A DNA stretch of 21,620 bases from a virus, in the IMG/VR virus record IMGVR_UViG_3300042922_001072, positions 1-21,620 of that record; one strand, 5' to 3'. The notes under the pieces were generated by a model that saw nothing but the letters and a program-made list of their open reading frames with translations, had not been told where the DNA came from and ran no database searches. Shown here in pieces: positions 11,709 to 19,818 of the stretch; the first letter of the stretch is position 1; every line of letters begins with the position of its first letter. The translations under genes and the position numbers were made by a program.

Positions 11709-11989
11709 TGCCGTACACGCCTCCGGTCTTCAAGGACAACGACCCGCGGTACCCGGTCGTCGACGAGAAGCTCAACGCCCTCGGCCAGCAGTACCAGGCG
11801 GTCGCAGAGGACGCGACGGACACGACCACGCCCGTTGGGTTCGCAATCGCGCAGGCAGCGTCGGCAGCCGGCGGCGGGGGTCTCATCGAGGACCCGACTC
11901 GTCCGGGCACGTTCATCATCACCAACCCGGGAGCGATCTCGGAGAACCCTGAGCGTCCTGGCACGTTCGTGATCGGAGGCACCGCATGA
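11708..11989 (+). CDS. Small structural-type protein with PGTF tandem repeat
   Basis: 93 residues of unknown function. The N-terminus (YTPPVFKDNDPRYPVVDEKLNA) and a helix with QQYQAVAEDATDT precede a Gly-rich hinge, after which a 17-residue unit is repeated: DPTRPGTFIITNPG then NPERPGTFVIGG. Each unit would give a tight turn followed by a beta strand. Such units are seen in adaptor segments of tail fibres and adhesins. It overlaps the holin stop by one base and the next fibre gene by four, so it is probably made together with that fibre and may anchor or chaperone it. The N-terminal phrase suggests docking, but this is a guess. Confidence 0.45.
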   Translation: MPYTPPVFKDNDPRYPVVDEKLNALGQQYQAVAEDATDTTTPVGFAIAQAASAAGGGGLIEDPTRPGTFIITNPGAISENPERPGTFVIGGTA

Positions 11990-13743
11990 CCGGACCCTTC
12001 GTGCCCGTGGGCATCGACAACGACAACCTGTTCCCGGCGCCCGTCGAACAGCGCCTATCCGACAAGATTGGTGCGGTCGTCGGTCCCGTCGTGGCTGCCG
12101 ACAAGTCGAAGGTGTCGGCACGCTTCATCCCCGACATCGCGAACTCCTGGTGGCAGAACATCCAGAGCTACCTCATCGGCGGACGCGTGTTCGTCGGCGG
12201 CTGTGGTGTCGACGGCGGTGTGCGGATCGGCTGGGCCGACCTCGAGAACGGGGTCGTGGGTCGGACGCGCCTGAACCCGGAACGGTTCTTCCAGGACGAC
12301 CACGACAGCGTCGGCATGGCGTTCGACACGTCCGGCGTGAACCGGCGTGCACTCGCGGTCTACTCCGCCCACGACGACGACACCTACCTCCGCATCCGCG
12401 AGGCCGAGGGTTACGGCAGCTTCGACTCCGTCGGCCCGGAGGTGCGACTGCAGTTCGGCGGCGGCACGTCAGTCGCGTACGGGTCGATCATGGCGAAGTC
12501 GGCGGAGACGAACAAGCGCGTCAACACGACCAATGGTTCCGCGGTGCTCCAGTCCGTGACGGCATCGAGCGTGAACGTCGCGCACGGGCTGGTCGACGGC
12601 ATGCGGTACCGGTTCACGGCCGCGGGTGCGCCCGCTCCGTTCGTCGCTGGCGTCTCGTACTACGTCGTGAACTCTGCAGGTGACACGACCACGTTCGGTC
12701 TCGCAGCCACCCAGGGCGGTGCAGCAATCGCCGCCACGGCAACATCGTCCGACGCGTCGAAGGTCATCACGGACAGCGGCCGCGGGCTGGTGCGGTGCCG
12801 GAACGGTGGCTTCAACAAGATCGCCCGGTCGCTGAACATGCAGGTCTCCGTGACGGAACGTCCGACGGCCACCCCGCCCACGTTCGAGGACACGACCGAC
12901 GAGCGGTTCACGCTCATCGAAGCGGCGTACGTGGCGCACACGGAAGCCGGGAACACGTTCTGGGCGATCGCCACCGGCGACCCGACCCCCGTGCCCGCCA
13001 CCGGATCCACGAAGACGTACTTCTTCAAGGGAATCAAGGGCGGCACCGGCGCGATCCGCAACGCGTTCGGCAACGTCATCGGCTACCTGTGGGGTGCGGC
13101 TCCCGCCCCTGGGACGCCGCTTCTGCCGCTCACCGGTGGTGGCAACAAGCCCGACCTGATCTACGACGCCACCGGCACCGACGGGCGCCGCTTCTACGAC
13201 GTCTCCCGCGGCGGTGACGCGGTCGCGGTCCTCTCGTTCAACCGTGAGGACTTCGCGACCGTCACCGGCCCGGATGGTGTCGCGGTGATCGCCGACCCCG
13301 CACGCGCGGAGCTCGGCGGAACGTACAAGGTCATGCGCCGGAAGACCAGCGCGACCACGAACGAGTGGATCGACGAGACGATAGCCCCTTCGGGTAAGCC
13401 GTTCGGTGCGTACAAGTCCGTTTACGTCGGCGGGATGTGCTTCGAACGTGACGACACATCCGGGAACGCGCTGCTTGCCGTCGTGGAGCAGGGCAACGTG
13501 TGGACGCTGCGACGCTACGTCCGCACTGGTACCGAATACCCGACGACCACTCCGGGAGTGTGGACCGAGGACGCGATCATCTACACCGCGCCGGCTGGGT
13601 ACAAGCTCGGGCGCCCGAAGATCCCGCTTGGCGCTGAGGGTCTCGCAGCAGGATCCCGGATCTTCACCGTGTCGCAGTACAGCTACTACGCGCTGGATTC
13701 GTTCAACGCCATCCGTGGTGGAGAGATCGTGGGGTACTACTGA
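11986..13743 (+). CDS. Tail fibre-like protein with BNR-like beta-propeller
   Basis: 585 residues. After a short N-terminal adaptor (1-55) come repeated strand blocks with the look of a beta-propeller of the BNR_4 group: FIPDIANSWWQ, IGGRVFVGGCGVDGGVRIGW, DDHDSVGMAFD, RALAVYSAHDDDTYLRIRE, then further blades to KIPLGAEGLAAGSRIFTVSQY. The D-D-H-D and Y-S-A-H segments are typical of that fold as I recall it. Residues about 175-265 look like an extra domain inserted between blades, with VAHGLVDGMRYRF and AGVSYYVVNSAGDTTTFGLA; this pattern recurs in phage structural proteins as a small adhesin-like module. Likely role: host-surface carbohydrate recognition or cleavage. No catalytic Asp box series was confirmed. 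Its ATG overlaps the previous stop. Confidence 0.6.
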   Translation: MTGPFVPVGIDNDNLFPAPVEQRLSDKIGAVVGPVVAADKSKVSARFIPDIANSWWQNIQSYLIGGRVFVGGCGVDGGVRIGWADLENGVVGRTRLNPERFFQDDHDSVGMAFDTSGVNRRALAVYSAHDDDTYLRIREAEGYGSFDSVGPEVRLQFGGGTSVAYGSIMAKSAETNKRVNTTNGSAVLQSVTASSVNVAHGLVDGMRYRFTAAGAPAPFVAGVSYYVVNSAGDTTTFGLAATQGGAAIAATATSSDASKVITDSGRGLVRCRNGGFNKIARSLNMQVSVTERPTATPPTFEDTTDERFTLIEAAYVAHTEAGNTFWAIATGDPTPVPATGSTKTYFFKGIKGGTGAIRNAFGNVIGYLWGAAPAPGTPLLPLTGGGNKPDLIYDATGTDGRRFYDVSRGGDAVAVLSFNREDFATVTGPDGVAVIADPARAELGGTYKVMRRKTSATTNEWIDETIAPSGKPFGAYKSVYVGGMCFERDDTSGNALLAVVEQGNVWTLRRYVRTGTEYPTTTPGVWTEDAIIYTAPAGYKLGRPKIPLGAEGLAAGSRIFTVSQYSYYALDSFNAIRGGEIVGYY

Positions 13744-14228
13744 TGGCCGACCGCATCCGTATCGACAAGCCGGTGATCGACCGCGACACCACGACCGCCG
13801 CACGCGAGCCCGTGCAGTACGACGGAGCCGGTGGGTTCGAGGTCCGAGACCCCGGACCGTCGCTCCTCATCCCTTGGGTGAAGACCACGGCTGTCGCCAG
13901 CACCACGGGCGGAAACCTGGCCGCGGTGTACGGCACCAGTGGCGTGCAAGAGTTCACCCTTCCCATCCCGTTCCGCCTGGTGGGTATTCAGATCGACACC
14001 CCGGGCAACATGTCGGGCGGCTCGCTGACTGTTCGCGTTCGAAAAGCCGGGGTCGAGGTGGCATCACTCGTCCTGGCGACCGGGAAGCACGTCGGAATCC
14101 CGCTCGGGTGGCGGAACGGGCCCCAGTTCGCGGCGGGAGACATCCTCTCCGTCATTCATGACACTGACGCGGCGTTCGCGCCGAGCCAGAACGTCATGAC
14201 GCACCTGCTGATTGCCGCACGACCCTGA
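13743..14228 (+). CDS. Tail-tip adhesin-like protein, last late gene
   Basis: 161 residues, starting in TGATG with the propeller gene. The first 35 residues are an extended polar segment with RIDKPVIDRDTTTAAREPVQYDG, which could be a docking arm. The rest is beta-rich: EFTLPIPFRLVGIQIDTPG, SLTVRVRKAGVEVASLVLATGK and SVIHDTDAAFAPSQNVMTHLLIAARP, a strand order like fibre-tip jelly rolls. I do not know a named family. It is the last gene of the rightward late operon and is followed within five bases by a strong hairpin. Probable receptor-binding or baseplate decoration protein made with the propeller. Confidence 0.5.
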   Translation: MADRIRIDKPVIDRDTTTAAREPVQYDGAGGFEVRDPGPSLLIPWVKTTAVASTTGGNLAAVYGTSGVQEFTLPIPFRLVGIQIDTPGNMSGGSLTVRVRKAGVEVASLVLATGKHVGIPLGWRNGPQFAAGDILSVIHDTDAAFAPSQNVMTHLLIAARP

Positions 14229-14232
14229 GCGC

Positions 14233-14273
14233 AAGAAGCCCCCGTCACTCATCGCGGGTGGCGGGGGCTTCTT
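14233..14273. terminator. Bidirectional terminator between convergent genes
   Basis: A 12-bp perfect inverted repeat: AAGAAGCCCCCG at 14233-14244 and CGGGGGCTTCTT at 14262-14273, with a 17-base loop. On both strands the stem ends in a T-rich run (TTCTT). It separates the late operon (+) from the polymerase gene (-), whose stop lies 13 bases away. Confidence 0.85.
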
Positions 14274-14285
14274 CGGCGTTCCGGC

Positions 14286-15515
14286 CTACCGGACCTTGAC
14301 CCAGTCGTCGAGGATCGCCGACGCGTAGAACGCTTCGTTGCGGTCGATGATGATGAGGAAGAAGTACGCGGCTGAGAACGCCACAGCGACCAGGCCGGCC
14401 GCAAACCGGTGCTTCGGGACCGCACCGACGATGAGCCCGTACCCGATGATGCGCAGGTACCCGAAGTACGCCAGCAGTCGGTAGAACGGGTAGCTGATCT
14501 CGCGCACCGGCAAGAGAACGAGTTCGAGCGACAACAGCACCAGAACGACGATCACAGCGCGGCGGGCGGGGGTGTCCACGTCGATCATCGGCTGGCGGGC
14601 GGTCTTCAGCAGCAGCGAGCCTTGCGGCTGGTAGCCGAGTGAACCCACCTTGCGCTTCGGTGGCCGTGGCGCCCGTGTTGCGCGGAGCACCCAGATACCG
14701 AACGCGATCGGGATGGCACGGTAGAGCGCGTCGATGCCGAACGCCCGTCCGCCGCGCGCGCCCTCAACGAGGTACTCCTGGTACTTCGAGTCGCCCAGAG
14801 CACCACCGAGGAACTCGAGCGCGGGTGCGGCGATCGACAGCGCCAGCACGCTGAGCAGCAGGACGGCCCAAATGGATCGACCGATGTGATCCTTCCGCGT
14901 CTTGAGGTAGCGGGCGACAGCCCACATTACGAGGAACACGACGGCGGAGTTGTGGAACAGGATGCCGGCTGATCCGACGACGAGCCCGAGCCACGGTCGG
15001 GACCGGATCACGAGCGCGACGCCAAGCACTGCGAGGGCCAGGGAGGGGCTCTGGCGGAGGAGGTTGAAGCCCTCGACGTACGCGGTGAACATGTACGTCA
15101 GCCACATGACTGCAGGCGGGCCGTAGTCGCGCAGAAGCATGATCGCGATGAGGATGACCGTTGAGCAGAACGCCGCGAGGACCGTGTAGTAGACGTGTGG
15201 GTCGCTGGTGAACCGGGCGACGATCCAGTTCATGAAGTAGTACGCGACCTCGCCGGACGCGCCTCGCGCGTCGGCGTAACCGGTGATCTCGAGCAGGTTC
15301 GGCGTCATCAACATGGCGTTGAAGACCTTGTTGCCGTAAAGCATCACGTCGGGGCCGCCGACTGCGTAATCCCGGATGCCGGCGAACACGCTGACCAGAA
15401 CGATAGCGAGGATGGAGAACAGCCACCGCACGAGCTTCGATGCGTTGAGTCGCGACCCTGCTACCGCGACGAAGGCAGTCGAGACGCCGAAGACGACGAA
15501 GTAGGGGGCGAGCAT
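14286..15515 (-). CDS. EpsG/Wzy-type polysaccharide polymerase (cargo gene)
   Basis: 409 residues and about ten or eleven membrane helices. The EpsG family pattern is visible: A-G-I-R-D-Y near 46-50 with G-x-P-D-x-x-x-Y (54-60), N-L-L-R-Q-S (151-156), and F-H-N-S-A (187-191). These polar signatures in a many-helix protein mark polymerases that join repeat units of exopolysaccharide or capsule outside the membrane. The cytoplasmic loop at about 280-315 is basic. Phage structural and lysis genes lie on the other strand, so it is probably a cargo gene expressed in the lysogen. A plausible role is changing the host's surface polysaccharide, for instance to block phage adsorption; no pathway partner (transferase, flippase) is present. 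The ATG follows one base after the stop of the tiny gene upstream (TGACATG). Confidence 0.75.
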   Translation of the reverse strand: MLAPYFVVFGVSTAFVAVAGSRLNASKLVRWLFSILAIVLVSVFAGIRDYAVGGPDVMLYGNKVFNAMLMTPNLLEITGYADARGASGEVAYYFMNWIVARFTSDPHVYYTVLAAFCSTVILIAIMLLRDYGPPAVMWLTYMFTAYVEGFNLLRQSPSLALAVLGVALVIRSRPWLGLVVGSAGILFHNSAVVFLVMWAVARYLKTRKDHIGRSIWAVLLLSVLALSIAAPALEFLGGALGDSKYQEYLVEGARGGRAFGIDALYRAIPIAFGIWVLRATRAPRPPKRKVGSLGYQPQGSLLLKTARQPMIDVDTPARRAVIVVLVLLSLELVLLPVREISYPFYRLLAYFGYLRIIGYGLIVGAVPKHRFAAGLVAVAFSAAYFFLIIIDRNEAFYASAILDDWVKVR

Positions 15516-15516
15516 G

Positions 15517-15618
15517 TCACCCGGGTTCGTTGTCGGTGCCCTGGCCGAAGTAGAGCACCGCCAGCCCGGCTAGCCCGAGAGGCAAGATCGCAATCAGTGC
15601 CCAGACGATGTCTTCCAT
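15517..15618 (-). CDS. Micro membrane protein, 33 residues
   Basis: A 33-residue frame: an N-terminal MEDIVWALIAI followed by a hydrophobic helix (about 5-24, ending VLYFG) and a short polar tail (QGTDNEPG). It is one base upstream of the polymerase ATG (TGACATG), so the pair is probably translationally coupled. GC-ending codons and the clean helix suggest that it is real. Single-helix microproteins beside polymerases may act as partners or only as leader cistrons that let ribosomes reach the larger gene. Function unknown. Confidence 0.55.
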   Translation of the reverse strand: MEDIVWALIAILPLGLAGLAVLYFGQGTDNEPG

Positions 15619-15635
15619 GGGCGTGATCCTATCGG

Positions 15636-15836
15636 CTACCTGATCGCGCTGCTGGTTTCGGCTTCGCTGAGCCCGTTCTCCGGGTCTACCTCGTGGTGCA
15701 GCGGGTCCGGGTTAGCTCGAGTCCACCGGTAGACGACGCTGACGGCCGCGACGACGACAGCGAAGAATCCCAGCAGCATCGTGACGCCGAGCGCCGGGAA
15801 CGTCTGAATCAGGCTCATGTCGCGGAGTCTAGTCAT
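15636..15836 (-). CDS. Small one-helix membrane protein, 66 residues
   Basis: 66 residues with one hydrophobic helix (about 12-36, FPALGVTMLLGFFAVVVAAVSVVY) followed by a short basic spot (RWTR) and an acidic, polar C-terminal tail (HHEVDPENGLSEAETSSAIR). Met7 is another possible start; a weak GGAAA lies before Met1. It lies 17 bases upstream of the 33-residue gene and heads the three-gene accessory operon. Function unknown. The large share of Val/Ala in the helix and the acidic tail resemble single-helix regulators, but this is not evidence of a role. Confidence 0.5.
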   Translation of the reverse strand: MTRLRDMSLIQTFPALGVTMLLGFFAVVVAAVSVVYRWTRANPDPLHHEVDPENGLSEAETSSAIR

Positions 15837-15868
15837 GGCACGTTTCCAGCAAAGCAGGAACTTAGTTC

Positions 15869-15903
15869 AGCCCCCGGCTGCCTCTACGAGGTGGCCGGGG
15901 GCT
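15869..15903. terminator. Nested hairpin between accessory genes
   Basis: Outer stem of ten pairs, AGCCCCCGGC at 15869-15878 with GCCGGGGGCT at 15894-15903; the loop contains a second stem, CCTC (15881-15884) with GAGG (15888-15891). The TAG stop of the unknown protein upstream is in the loop. No clear T-run follows on the minus strand, so it may weaken rather than end transcription into the polymerase operon; on the plus strand CTCTTT follows. Confidence 0.6.
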
Positions 15904-16204
15904 CTTTCGGCGCTCGCACGGATGGCGTGCTGTGCGACCCGCGGCTGCGTCGCTCCTGGCCTTCACGAATGAACGGCACCGCGCCGGGGAACGCGTCGAG
16001 AAGCGCGGCCGTGAGCGCGGCGTTCTCGGGGATGCCGTGGTATCCGACCCACCGGCCGACCTCCGGGTAGAGGATGTCGGGGCGGCCGCCGGCGAGCTGT
16101 CGGACCTCGTCGATGATCGGTTGCACGTCCCGCGTGTACTGGTTGCGGCCCATCGCCGCGCTGAGCGAGATGCTCAGCAGGACGTCGGGGTGTAGGCGGC
16201 TCAT
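15884..16204 (-). CDS. Hypothetical protein, accessory strand
   Basis: 106 residues, unrecognised. The N-terminus MSRLHPDVLLSISLSAAMGRN and the middle QPIIDEVRQLAGGRPDILYPEVGRWVGYHG look globular; AALTAALLDAFPGAVPFIREGQERR is a helix that ends in a basic stretch, and the last 20 residues are disordered and polar. The start overlaps the stop of the gene upstream by four bases (ATGA), so the two are one transcription unit. The stop is inside a hairpin loop. No known domain is visible; the compact form might be a small DNA-binding or inhibitory protein, but nothing proves it. Confidence 0.55.
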   Translation of the reverse strand: MSRLHPDVLLSISLSAAMGRNQYTRDVQPIIDEVRQLAGGRPDILYPEVGRWVGYHGIPENAALTAALLDAFPGAVPFIREGQERRSRGSHSTPSVRAPKEPPATS

Positions 16205-16470
16205 CGCTGGATGATGGCGAGCAGCTCGTGGCCCTCAGGGACCTTGCCACGCAGAGTCTCGATGTCGTCGGCCTCGATCTCCGTCGGCTCATCACGACGC
16301 GCGAACTGCCCGACCGTGAAAAACTCCGTCGTCCCGGGCTGGCGTCCCATGTGCGCCTGCGTCATCTCCCAACCGGGCGGCGCCTCGAGCTGCTCGTGAA
16401 TGGCGGCGATACCTTCACTACGCACCTCGCGCGTGCGCTTCTCGATGGGGCGGATCAGTCCGATGAACAT
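16201..16470 (-). CDS. Hypothetical protein, 89 residues
   Basis: 89 residues from the Met at 16470 (MFIGLIRPIEKRTREVRSEG). A longer frame runs upstream to 16563, but that part overlaps the zinc-ribbon gene and lacks protein-like character. TACGAT at 16483-16478 (minus) is a fair -10 lying just before this ATG, so a near-leaderless start is possible. The protein has basic helices at first, a WEMTQAHMGRQPGTTEFFTVGQF strand region, and an acidic end (TEIEADDIETLRGKVPEGHELLAIIQR). The end overlaps the next ATG. No family recognised. Confidence 0.55.
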   Translation of the reverse strand: MFIGLIRPIEKRTREVRSEGIAAIHEQLEAPPGWEMTQAHMGRQPGTTEFFTVGQFARRDEPTEIEADDIETLRGKVPEGHELLAIIQR

Positions 16471-16693: not shown

Positions 16694-17376
<683 letters not shown>

Positions 17377-17769: not shown

Positions 17770-18864
17770 CTAGCTGACGGCGGCCGCCCGCGCCTTGCTC
17801 ATAGCCACGGCGACCGCCTCGAGGTCGTCGTCGAAGAGGTCGGCGTAGACGTCGAGTGTCATCGCAGCGGACGCGTGCCCGAGCATTCGCTGCACCGCCT
17901 TCACGTTCGCGCCGGCGCTGATGGCGAGCGATGCGGCGGTGTGGCGCAGGTCATGCGGCGTGATCGTGGGGAACGATCGGTCGGCGGTCTGGGCGGCACG
18001 TACTGCGCGCACGAACCATCCCGTCGCGCCGTGTGACCGCGGGATGGGTGCGACTCCGGGGCCGAGGACGAAGGCGTCGCGGCTCTTGCCCTCGCAGAGG
18101 CGGGCGAGCTCCGGAATCAGGAAGACGGGCATGGCGACCTCGCGGCGGTCGCCGGTCTTCGGCGTGCCGATCTCCCATTGCCCCTTGACCCACACGGCGT
18201 TGTCCTCGACGAGGAGTCGGCGCCGGAGCATGTCGAGGTGGCGGACGCGGAGGCCGATCGCCTCGCCCCATCGCAGGCCGGAATACGCGAGCAGGCGGAT
18301 GACGGTGTCGTAGGGCTCTGCGTGCCGCGCGAGCACCTCGACCTGCTCGTGGGTGAGGTACCGCTGCGGCTTCTTCGTCTTCGGCGGTAGCTGAAGGCCC
18401 TTGGCGGGATTCGACAGGATGATGCGGTCGCGCTCGGCGATGGCGAGGACGCTCGACAGTACGAAGACGGCCCGGCGGACGGTTTGCGACGCGAGGTCGC
18501 GGTGCAGCTCGGCGACCCAGTCCTCGATCTCGGATGGGCGGATGCTGGCTGCGCCTCGGGTGCCCCATCGAGGCTCGACGTGCACGCGCCAGGCGGTCTC
18601 CATCACGTTTTGAGATGAGGGCTTCAGGCCGGCGAGGCGGCCGCGCTTCCATTGCTCGGCGAATGCGGCGATGGTCTTCTTCCCCTCGGAGGGGTCGAGG
18701 TACTGGCCGCTCGCCTTCGAGATCGTCGTCGACGCGAGAAACAGCTCGGCTTCGCGCTTCGTCTTGAATCCGCGCTTGTCGGTCTGCGCGCCGTTCGGCT
18801 TCCGGTAGCGGACTCGGTACCGCTTGCCCTTCGCGGTCTCGTAGGGCGCGATCGTGCCGGCCAT
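17770..18864 (-). CDS. int: Tyrosine integrase
   Basis: 364 residues. It catalyses attP-attB recombination. The N-terminal 60 residues (RYRVRYRKPNGAQTDKRGFKTKREAE) look like an AP2-type arm-binding domain, residues 65-155 like the SAM-like core-binding domain, and 170-350 the catalytic domain. All active-site residues are present: Arg198 (GLRWGEA), Lys236 (TPKTGDRR), His304 and Arg307 (HDLRHTA), His330 (LGHASAAMT) and the nucleophile Tyr340 (VYADLF). The ATG is one base after the stop of the peptidase gene (TGACATG), so repressor, peptidase and integrase appear to be one operon: integrase would be made with the repressor when lysogeny is chosen. A start without SD agrees with coupling. Confidence 0.95.
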   Translation of the reverse strand: MAGTIAPYETAKGKRYRVRYRKPNGAQTDKRGFKTKREAELFLASTTISKASGQYLDPSEGKKTIAAFAEQWKRGRLAGLKPSSQNVMETAWRVHVEPRWGTRGAASIRPSEIEDWVAELHRDLASQTVRRAVFVLSSVLAIAERDRIILSNPAKGLQLPPKTKKPQRYLTHEQVEVLARHAEPYDTVIRLLAYSGLRWGEAIGLRVRHLDMLRRRLLVEDNAVWVKGQWEIGTPKTGDRREVAMPVFLIPELARLCEGKSRDAFVLGPGVAPIPRSHGATGWFVRAVRAAQTADRSFPTITPHDLRHTAASLAISAGANVKAVQRMLGHASAAMTLDVYADLFDDDLEAVAVAMSKARAAAVS

Positions 18865-18865
18865 G

Positions 18866-19309
18866 TCAGGCGCTGTCCGCGAGGTGGTGCCGACCGATCC
18901 ATTGCCCGACGCCCATCTTGGCGCGGACGTAGGTCACGCCGCGGAGCTTGACGAGGCAGTTCTGCATCCAGAGGTTCAGGACGTGGACGCTCACTCCGAA
19001 GTGCTCGGCGATGTCGTACTGGTGCAAGCCCTGCTGCTCGAGGGCGGCGTAGGTGGCCGGGTCGATGAGGAGGCGCGCGGCGTACTCATCGGCTTGGTCC
19101 TCGGCGCGAGGGTCGTTCTCGCAGCGGTGGCCGTGATGTGCGTGGCCGAGTTCGTGCGCGATGGTGAACACCTGCTCGTCGGGGGACTGGCGCAGCTCGA
19201 AGTAGACCTCGCGCTCGTCCTCGTACCACTCGCCGAGCACGCCCGGTTCGAGCCGTGCTCCGTGGACGGAGATCCCGAGCTGTGCGGCGAATCGCAGTAT
19301 CTCTTTCAT
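18866..19309 (-). CDS. ImmA/IrrE-type zinc metallopeptidase
   Basis: 147 residues from the ATG at 19309, which has AGGAGG five bases upstream; another ATG at 19333 overlaps the repressor stop but has no SD. The site H-E-L-G-H (52-56) followed by A-H-H-G-H, and E-x-x-A-x-x-Y-A-A-R-L-L (Glu70 as third zinc ligand), is the ImmA/IrrE (M78) signature. The C-terminal part after 90 has an HTH-like pattern (GLHQYDIAEHFGVSVHVLNLW). In ICEBs1 the related ImmA cuts the ImmR repressor to start excision; here it lies directly after the repressor gene, so the same job is likely. Other members may serve as toxins, but the position between repressor and integrase favours the induction switch. Confidence 0.85.
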   Translation of the reverse strand: MKEILRFAAQLGISVHGARLEPGVLGEWYEDEREVYFELRQSPDEQVFTIAHELGHAHHGHRCENDPRAEDQADEYAARLLIDPATYAALEQQGLHQYDIAEHFGVSVHVLNLWMQNCLVKLRGVTYVRAKMGVGQWIGRHHLADSA

Positions 19310-19329
19310 CGGGACCTCCTCCCCTCGGA

Positions 19330-19818
19330 TCATTCGGCGTGCGGCGCCTCGTCCGCTTTGGTCGTGCCCTTGCGTGCCGCGGTGCGCTGCTTCGCTGGCG
19401 GCTGCTTCACGCCCGGCTCATCCTCACCCGAGGCTCCGACACCGAACCGTCCCTCGATGACGTTGCCGGGTCGGGGTCGCGGATCGACGTCGCGCACGAG
19501 GTAGACAGTGCGCCCATCGGCGCCGCTCACCACCTCGTAGTCCGGAACGAGTCGGCCCTCGTAGTCGGACGCGTCGATCAGTCGCACGCGCGCGAGCATC
19601 TCGTCGGGCGTCAGCTCGAAGCACTTGGCGGCGACCTCGAAGTCGTTCAGCGTGAAGACGGCTTCGTTTCGCAGCCGCGTGGCGACGTAGTTGAGGGACT
19701 TGTCCATCATCGTCGCGAGCTCGCTGACGGTAAGTCCGCGCTTGCGGCGCTGCTGCTCGAGGTAGGCGGAGAACGCCTGCGACAGGCGCAGAGGCTTCCC
19801 TTGAGATCCAGAGGGCAT
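19330..19818 (-). CDS. Immunity repressor (XRE-type)
   Basis: 162 residues with an N-terminal helix-turn-helix (about 15-75: EQQRRKRGLTVSELATMMDKSLNYVATRLR, then FTLNDFEVAAKCFELTPDEML). The middle (85-125) is a short domain of strands and the C-terminus is basic and disordered (KQPPAKQRTAARK). It is divergent from the Cro-like gene, with which it shares the NYV-x-x-R ... F-x-L-x-x-x-E-x-A-A pattern, so both may bind the same operators. The ATG has no SD, and TACACT lies exactly 12-7 bases before it, which suggests a leaderless message. It should hold down the early promoter and be inactivated through the peptidase downstream. The role is inferred from position and fold. Confidence 0.82.
   Translation of the reverse strand: MPSGSQGKPLRLSQAFSAYLEQQRRKRGLTVSELATMMDKSLNYVATRLRNEAVFTLNDFEVAAKCFELTPDEMLARVRLIDASDYEGRLVPDYEVVSGADGRTVYLVRDVDPRPRPGNVIEGRFGVGASGEDEPGVKQPPAKQRTAARKGTTKADEAPHAE

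Follow-up and report, generated by a model that had tools for sequence, protein, structure and literature searches.

The DNA analysed here, a 21.6-kb IMG/VR virus record that we call the window, comes, on sequence evidence, from a temperate phage whose host is Microbacterium or closely related to it, and it very probably carries an EpsG-family polysaccharide polymerase in a slot for surface-conversion genes. Two micro-proteins, each with one predicted membrane helix, are encoded ahead of the polymerase, and we favour, as probable, the reading of these genes as a cassette for lysogenic conversion: the polymerase would give host repeat units a new linkage, a micro-protein would silence the host's own enzyme, and sibling phages would be excluded; that the cassette alters the glycan receptor in lysogens we regard as quite likely. 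The cassette lies beside attP, opposite in strand to the late genes, and in the mechanism we propose leaderless promoters of its own would drive its expression in the lysogen. The EpsG-family protein would act in the manner of a Wzy polymerase: it would take lipid-linked units supplied and flipped by the host and join them through a different linkage. Alone or together with the 60/66-aa protein, the 33-aa peptide would block or displace the host polymerase, and the altered glycan would no longer be a receptor for the neighbouring tail fibre, a loss that would exclude sibling phages and keep progeny off lysogen debris. The enzymatic linkage change, the inhibition of the host polymerase, the receptor change and the expression are steps that we infer.

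Tail genes occupy the left of the window and integrase and repressor genes its right (Table 1). The match to the 3' end of nrdF, together with the presence of the same core beside the integrase of related prophages, identifies attP and points to a Microbacterium-like host. Once integrated, the EpsG module would sit about 1.5-3 kb off a prophage end, and the neighbourhood of a prophage end is a usual location of conversion genes. The nrdF integration site is common to related phages and prophages (L006, L007, L010-L012, L014-L016 and L020; L numbers denote loci compared). Beside the integrase, positions 18866-19818 hold an IrrE/ImmA-type metallopeptidase gene and an HTH repressor-like gene, a pair that suggests protease-controlled lysogeny.

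Table 1. Features of the cassette and its surroundings in the window.
Feature	Coordinates	Strand	Basis or remark
Putative tail-fibre gene, convergent with the cassette	11986..13743	+	Position and sister-locus comparison; without Pfam match
161-aa tail-associated gene adjoining the cassette	13743..14228	+	Position only
Hairpin, terminator-like, between convergent polymerase and tail gene 13743-14228	14233..14273	.	
EpsG-family (PF14897) polysaccharide polymerase	14286..15515	-	409 aa; Pfam, invariant residues, 32% full-length homologue
33-aa single-helix membrane protein (mp33), candidate polymerase inhibitor	15517..15618	-	Iap-like by size and layout
-10-like hexamer TAGGAT	15626..15631	-	7 nt ahead of the 33-aa ATG; leaderless promoter signature
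66-aa single-helix membrane protein (mp66)	15636..15836	-	Likely true start ATG 15818, giving 60 aa
-10-like hexamer TAGACT	15826..15831	-	7 nt ahead of ATG 15818
26-bp slot boundary element GGGGGCTGAACTAAGTTCCTGCTTTG with palindromic GAACTAAGTTC	15850..15875	-	Just after the g106 hairpin
Hairpin, 16-nt arms	15869..15903	.	Closes the g106 unit; upstream slot edge
g106, conserved slot flank	15884..16204	-	58-93% identity in sister phages
g88, conserved slot flank	16201..16470	-	80-92% identity in most sister phages
attP core, 81 bp of the nrdF 3' end	17293..17373	+	98.8% identity to Microbacterium-type L002/L003
Tyrosine integrase	17770..18864	-	Pfam PF00589

The polymerase matches the EpsG profile PF14897 over residues 32-390 (E=3.3e-21), with a score of 76.2 bits, where the cutoff is 30.1, in an alignment that spans profile positions 2-314 of 326. 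It also keeps all nine residues (D56, Y60, R154, Q155, H188, A191, Y245, R346 and Y350) that do not vary when it is aligned with seven Microbacterium EpsG-family proteins, which are 20-23% identical to it. The initial annotation had named an EpsG polymerase from three motifs, which we find as IRDYAVGGPD, LLRQS and FHNSA and which contain some of these invariant residues, and had put forward a profile search as the check; the score and the retained residues bear the assignment out. Hydropathy predicts 8-10 TM segments. NCBIfam gave no match and PHROGs no significant one, a sequence-profile search of the PDB found no solved relative, and a single-sequence AlphaFold model (pLDDT 47) was unusable.

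The best homologue found, in one of 400 family genomes (E=7e-50), lies at one end of a chromosomal cluster that also encodes a Wzx-like flippase, glycosyltransferases and an initiating transferase of WbaP type, and it is from these gene neighbours that we infer a Wzx/Wzy-pathway polymerase of lipid-linked repeat units in the phage. EpsG-family genes above the cutoff are rare in Microbacterium (7/367 genomes), which we count against the cassette reading, and those examined adjoin glycosyltransferase, flippase or transferase-like genes, as read from translations. Within the 21.6-kb window we see no transferase or flippase gene, as had been noted before, and the phage copy, being solitary, would need repeat units made by the host. 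Close relatives were found in none of the phage records, viral contigs and genome contigs searched; plasmid matches proved to be distant Lactobacillaceae EpsG and were rejected as such.

Both one-helix ORFs that had been annotated ahead of the polymerase are present at their annotated positions, each with one strong hydrophobic segment (KD19 about 2.5), and the stop of mp33 falls 1 nt ahead of the polymerase ATG. The longer ORF stands as an ORF, but its start is probably the internal ATG at 15818 rather than position 15836, since the pattern TANNNT-N7-ATG occurs there. Third-position GC is phage-like in both genes, while their codon score alone is unremarkable (77th-80th percentile of open frames). 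Viral contigs held no homologue of mp66, and none of the loci compared held a homologue of either protein.

TANNNT-N7-ATG is the typical pattern of leaderless actinobacterial transcripts, and in the window it stands ahead of both micro-proteins. When only the gene that opens each cargo unit is scored, the pattern is found in 14/17 cases against 7/133 other genes, and among the cases added after the pattern had been noticed in 6/7 (p=1e-6). An earlier and stricter count, which scored the cargo gene itself, gave 6/15 against 6/125 controls (p=0.0003), a lower fraction because polymerases behind micro-proteins were scored and late starts were missed. A sigma-70 consensus scan returned no promoter. 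Autonomous promoter signatures are a well-supported feature of the cassette, which in its sequence signatures has the layout of a phage moron: promoter signatures, hairpins, an orientation opposite to the late genes and alternative cargos in sister phages. That the polymerase gene is a silent passenger of recent capture, as its single occurrence in phage collections might suggest, is scarcely credible given that its ORF is intact, its codon use is phage-like (GC3 0.87), the family residues are conserved, and it lies behind promoter signatures in a slot of functional type.

The slot that the cassette fills is hypervariable and lies between the tail-fibre gene on one side and g106, g88 and attP on the other. 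The 26-bp boundary element, which may be an operator, part of a promoter or a recombination boundary, recurs at the matching position in L007, L101, L103, L107, L110 and L111 with 0-7 mismatches, and thus in seven phages with the window. In L101, L103 and L111 the fibre is 85-93% identical from residue 1 to 165-178, its remainder is unrelated and the cargos differ, so the variable block would extend across both the cargo and the part of the fibre presumed to bind the receptor. Sister slots carry Wzy_C proteins (L101/L102, L161 and L174, with L106 below the cutoff), Acyl_transf_3 acyltransferases (L110 and L208, and fused to SGNH in L194), OpgC (L116), GDSL/SGNH proteins (L107, L111, L197, L201, L229 and, by reading, a partial one in L007) or a glycosyltransferase (L108); L105, L109 and L159 hold small genes only, and several isolate loci are empty. 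The cargo of L103 (6824-8164), counted as polymerase-type by topology and position only, is a 446-aa 11-TM protein without Pfam match that has a 50-aa TM protein ahead of it, and possibly represents an undescribed polymerase or ligase family.

These cargos bear on what the polymerase is for. An EpsG protein might boost or change exopolysaccharide for host survival, in biofilms, desiccation or cold, with no relation to receptors, as has been proposed for viral epsG (PMC10405475). We think this distinctly unlikely here, since the slot also takes acyltransferases, esterases and a glycosyltransferase beside the variable part of the fibre, and glycan editing, not extra polymer, is the common denominator of its cargos. 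The slot, its alternative glycan cargos and the comparative data instead support lysogenic conversion, which the initial annotation had already proposed. That annotation had also suggested looking for the same three genes in other actinophages. There the outcome is divided: the slot and the architecture of a polymerase with a small TM protein recur, but their sequences do not, and the exact set was found in no other phage, with EpsG absent from 15 records related by integrase.

Ahead of its Wzy_C cargo, L101 has a 391-aa ORF (1059-2234) whose motifs, SGGxDS and CxxCxxC-like, may mark a PP-loop enzyme of the conversion unit. In the cultured Microbacterium phage Min1 (L117), a fatty acid desaturase gene (1556-2653) adjoins the g88 homologue, and the g88 neighbourhood may also accept lipid-modifying cargo. 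The g88 small-protein family occurs in 128/363 Microbacterium genomes, often outside recognisable prophages, and the many g88-family loci of these genomes outside a phage context were not counted as slots.

A small TM ORF lies directly upstream of 5/6 polymerase-type cargos (the window, L101, L103, L161 and L174) and of 0/9 other cargos (Fisher p=0.002), and of 4/125 other phage genes, where such an ORF was defined as having 28-110 aa, a TM segment and an end between -35 and +60 nt relative to the cargo start. These counts come from a small sample, and the first three cases had been seen before the test was devised; loci added later contributed L161 and L174 as positives and L194, L197, L201 and L208 as negatives. 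In the sixth polymerase slot, L106, the strand of the cargo carries no upstream small TM protein; by reading, there is one on the opposite strand. A further 60 regions, examined to enlarge the test, yielded no additional polymerase slots. Neither the polymerases nor the small proteins show significant similarity among themselves, which suggests that the pairing arose repeatedly.

What the small proteins do is a separate question. They may be partners of the phage polymerase, in assembly, chain length or stability, rather than inhibitors, with the glycan still converted; the small genes lie within 1-12 nt of the polymerase or overlap it, and non-polymerase cargos lack a directly upstream small TM protein, both of which fit this. 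We nevertheless consider it rather unlikely, because the chromosomal EpsG clusters examined do without such a protein (0/8 real cases), an indication that a partner is not generally needed, and because inhibitors occupy the corresponding neighbourhood in phages epsilon15 and D3. (An apparent small TM ORF beside the chromosomal EpsG of L088 looks like the end of a glycosyltransferase and was rejected.) Several phages use small membrane proteins to block DNA entry, and the micro-proteins might likewise be superinfection exclusion factors that share the slot and have nothing to do with the polymerase. Small TM ORFs not directly linked to the cargo do occur in the non-polymerase slots L116 and L197 and, by reading, on the opposite strand in L107; but direct upstream linkage is confined in this sample to polymerase cargos, and we give entry blocking little credence.

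We return to inhibition of the host polymerase, a reading that we draw from the layout of epsilon15 and D3. Conversion of serotype by a phage polymerase with a polymerase-silencing peptide has been worked out in Gram-negative phages. Salmonella phage epsilon15 has, in order, its tailspike, a convergent wzy-beta, a 66-aa two-TM inhibitor of the alpha-polymerase 12 nt upstream of wzy-beta, lysis genes and integrase; like the window, it places a convergent polymerase and a small membrane protein between tailspike or fibre and integrase. It differs in its target, a Gram-negative O-antigen, in an inhibitor with two TM segments where the window has one helix, in the lack of significant sequence similarity, and in a polymerase of Wzy_C type, not EpsG (PMC4815439). 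Pseudomonas phage D3 has the order tail fibre, 31-aa iap, O-acetylase, wzy-beta, endolysin, attP and integrase, so that a single-TM inhibitor of 31 aa and a polymerase lie opposite the late genes between tail fibre and attP, a placement shared with the small protein and polymerase of the window, although iap does not adjoin wzy-beta, an acetylase is included and the polymerase is unrelated. Iap mimics TM2 of Wzz (PMC12004945) and has been proposed to work in concert with Wzy-beta (PMC4815439).

The window has the same arrangement of polymerase and small membrane protein, on the opposite strand and from fibre to attP/integrase. An eight-sequence comparison found no significant similarity to Iap, the epsilon15 inhibitor or the beta-polymerases, and mp33 gave only a 23-residue hydrophobic match to the epsilon15 inhibitor (E=0.005 in that eight-sequence database). 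By its layout the cassette is thus an analogue of epsilon15 and D3, convergent and not a member by descent. The micro-proteins had been annotated as possible regulators of the polymerase; their link to it is upheld by the comparative data, and by analogy we would define their role more sharply, as probably inhibiting the polymerase of the host, although for the specific claim that mp33 and/or mp60/66 silence that enzyme we see the chances as evenly balanced.

Phage-borne EpsG/Wzy proteins are already known. In Acinetobacter baumannii, the prophage polymerases WzyPh1/Wzy1Ph are, like that of the window, EpsG-family proteins; the linkage change they cause was assigned from CPS structures and a deletion, with a suppressor of the host Wzy that those studies leave unnamed (PMC9241936, PMC13228068). 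They act on a Gram-negative capsule, and a small TM partner has not been described for them. The epsG carried by vOTU4_CB17_43158, a phage genome of Arctic cryopeg brine, was read as a survival gene (PMC10405475); it differs in being Firmicutes-like, and slot or small proteins were not analysed there. The Gnarl proteins of E. coli phages, of 40-90 aa, affect O-antigen (PMC12373910) in phages that differ from ours in having no polymerase or other seroconverting enzyme. In the searches made of the open-licence literature, the window provides the first polymerase-plus-micro-protein layout in phages of Actinobacteria.

The same layout, built from unrelated parts in phages of Gram-positive actinobacteria, suggests that this design arose repeatedly. 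It also supplies a rule for finding inhibitors, namely to look immediately ahead of a phage-borne Wzy/EpsG gene beside the tail fibre for a small TM ORF, and the presence of the variable half of the fibre and the surface-conversion genes in one variable block makes their co-evolution testable. More tentatively, we raise the possibility that the receptor-binding half of the fibre and the receptor-altering cassette swap as a matched block in these phages of Actinobacteria, that each captured polymerase comes with its own, unrelated silencing micro-protein, and that polymerase-plus-inhibitor pairs are a general convergent design across phyla. If so, such pairs would be findable by layout alone, including the missing suppressor of host Wzy in the Acinetobacter prophages.
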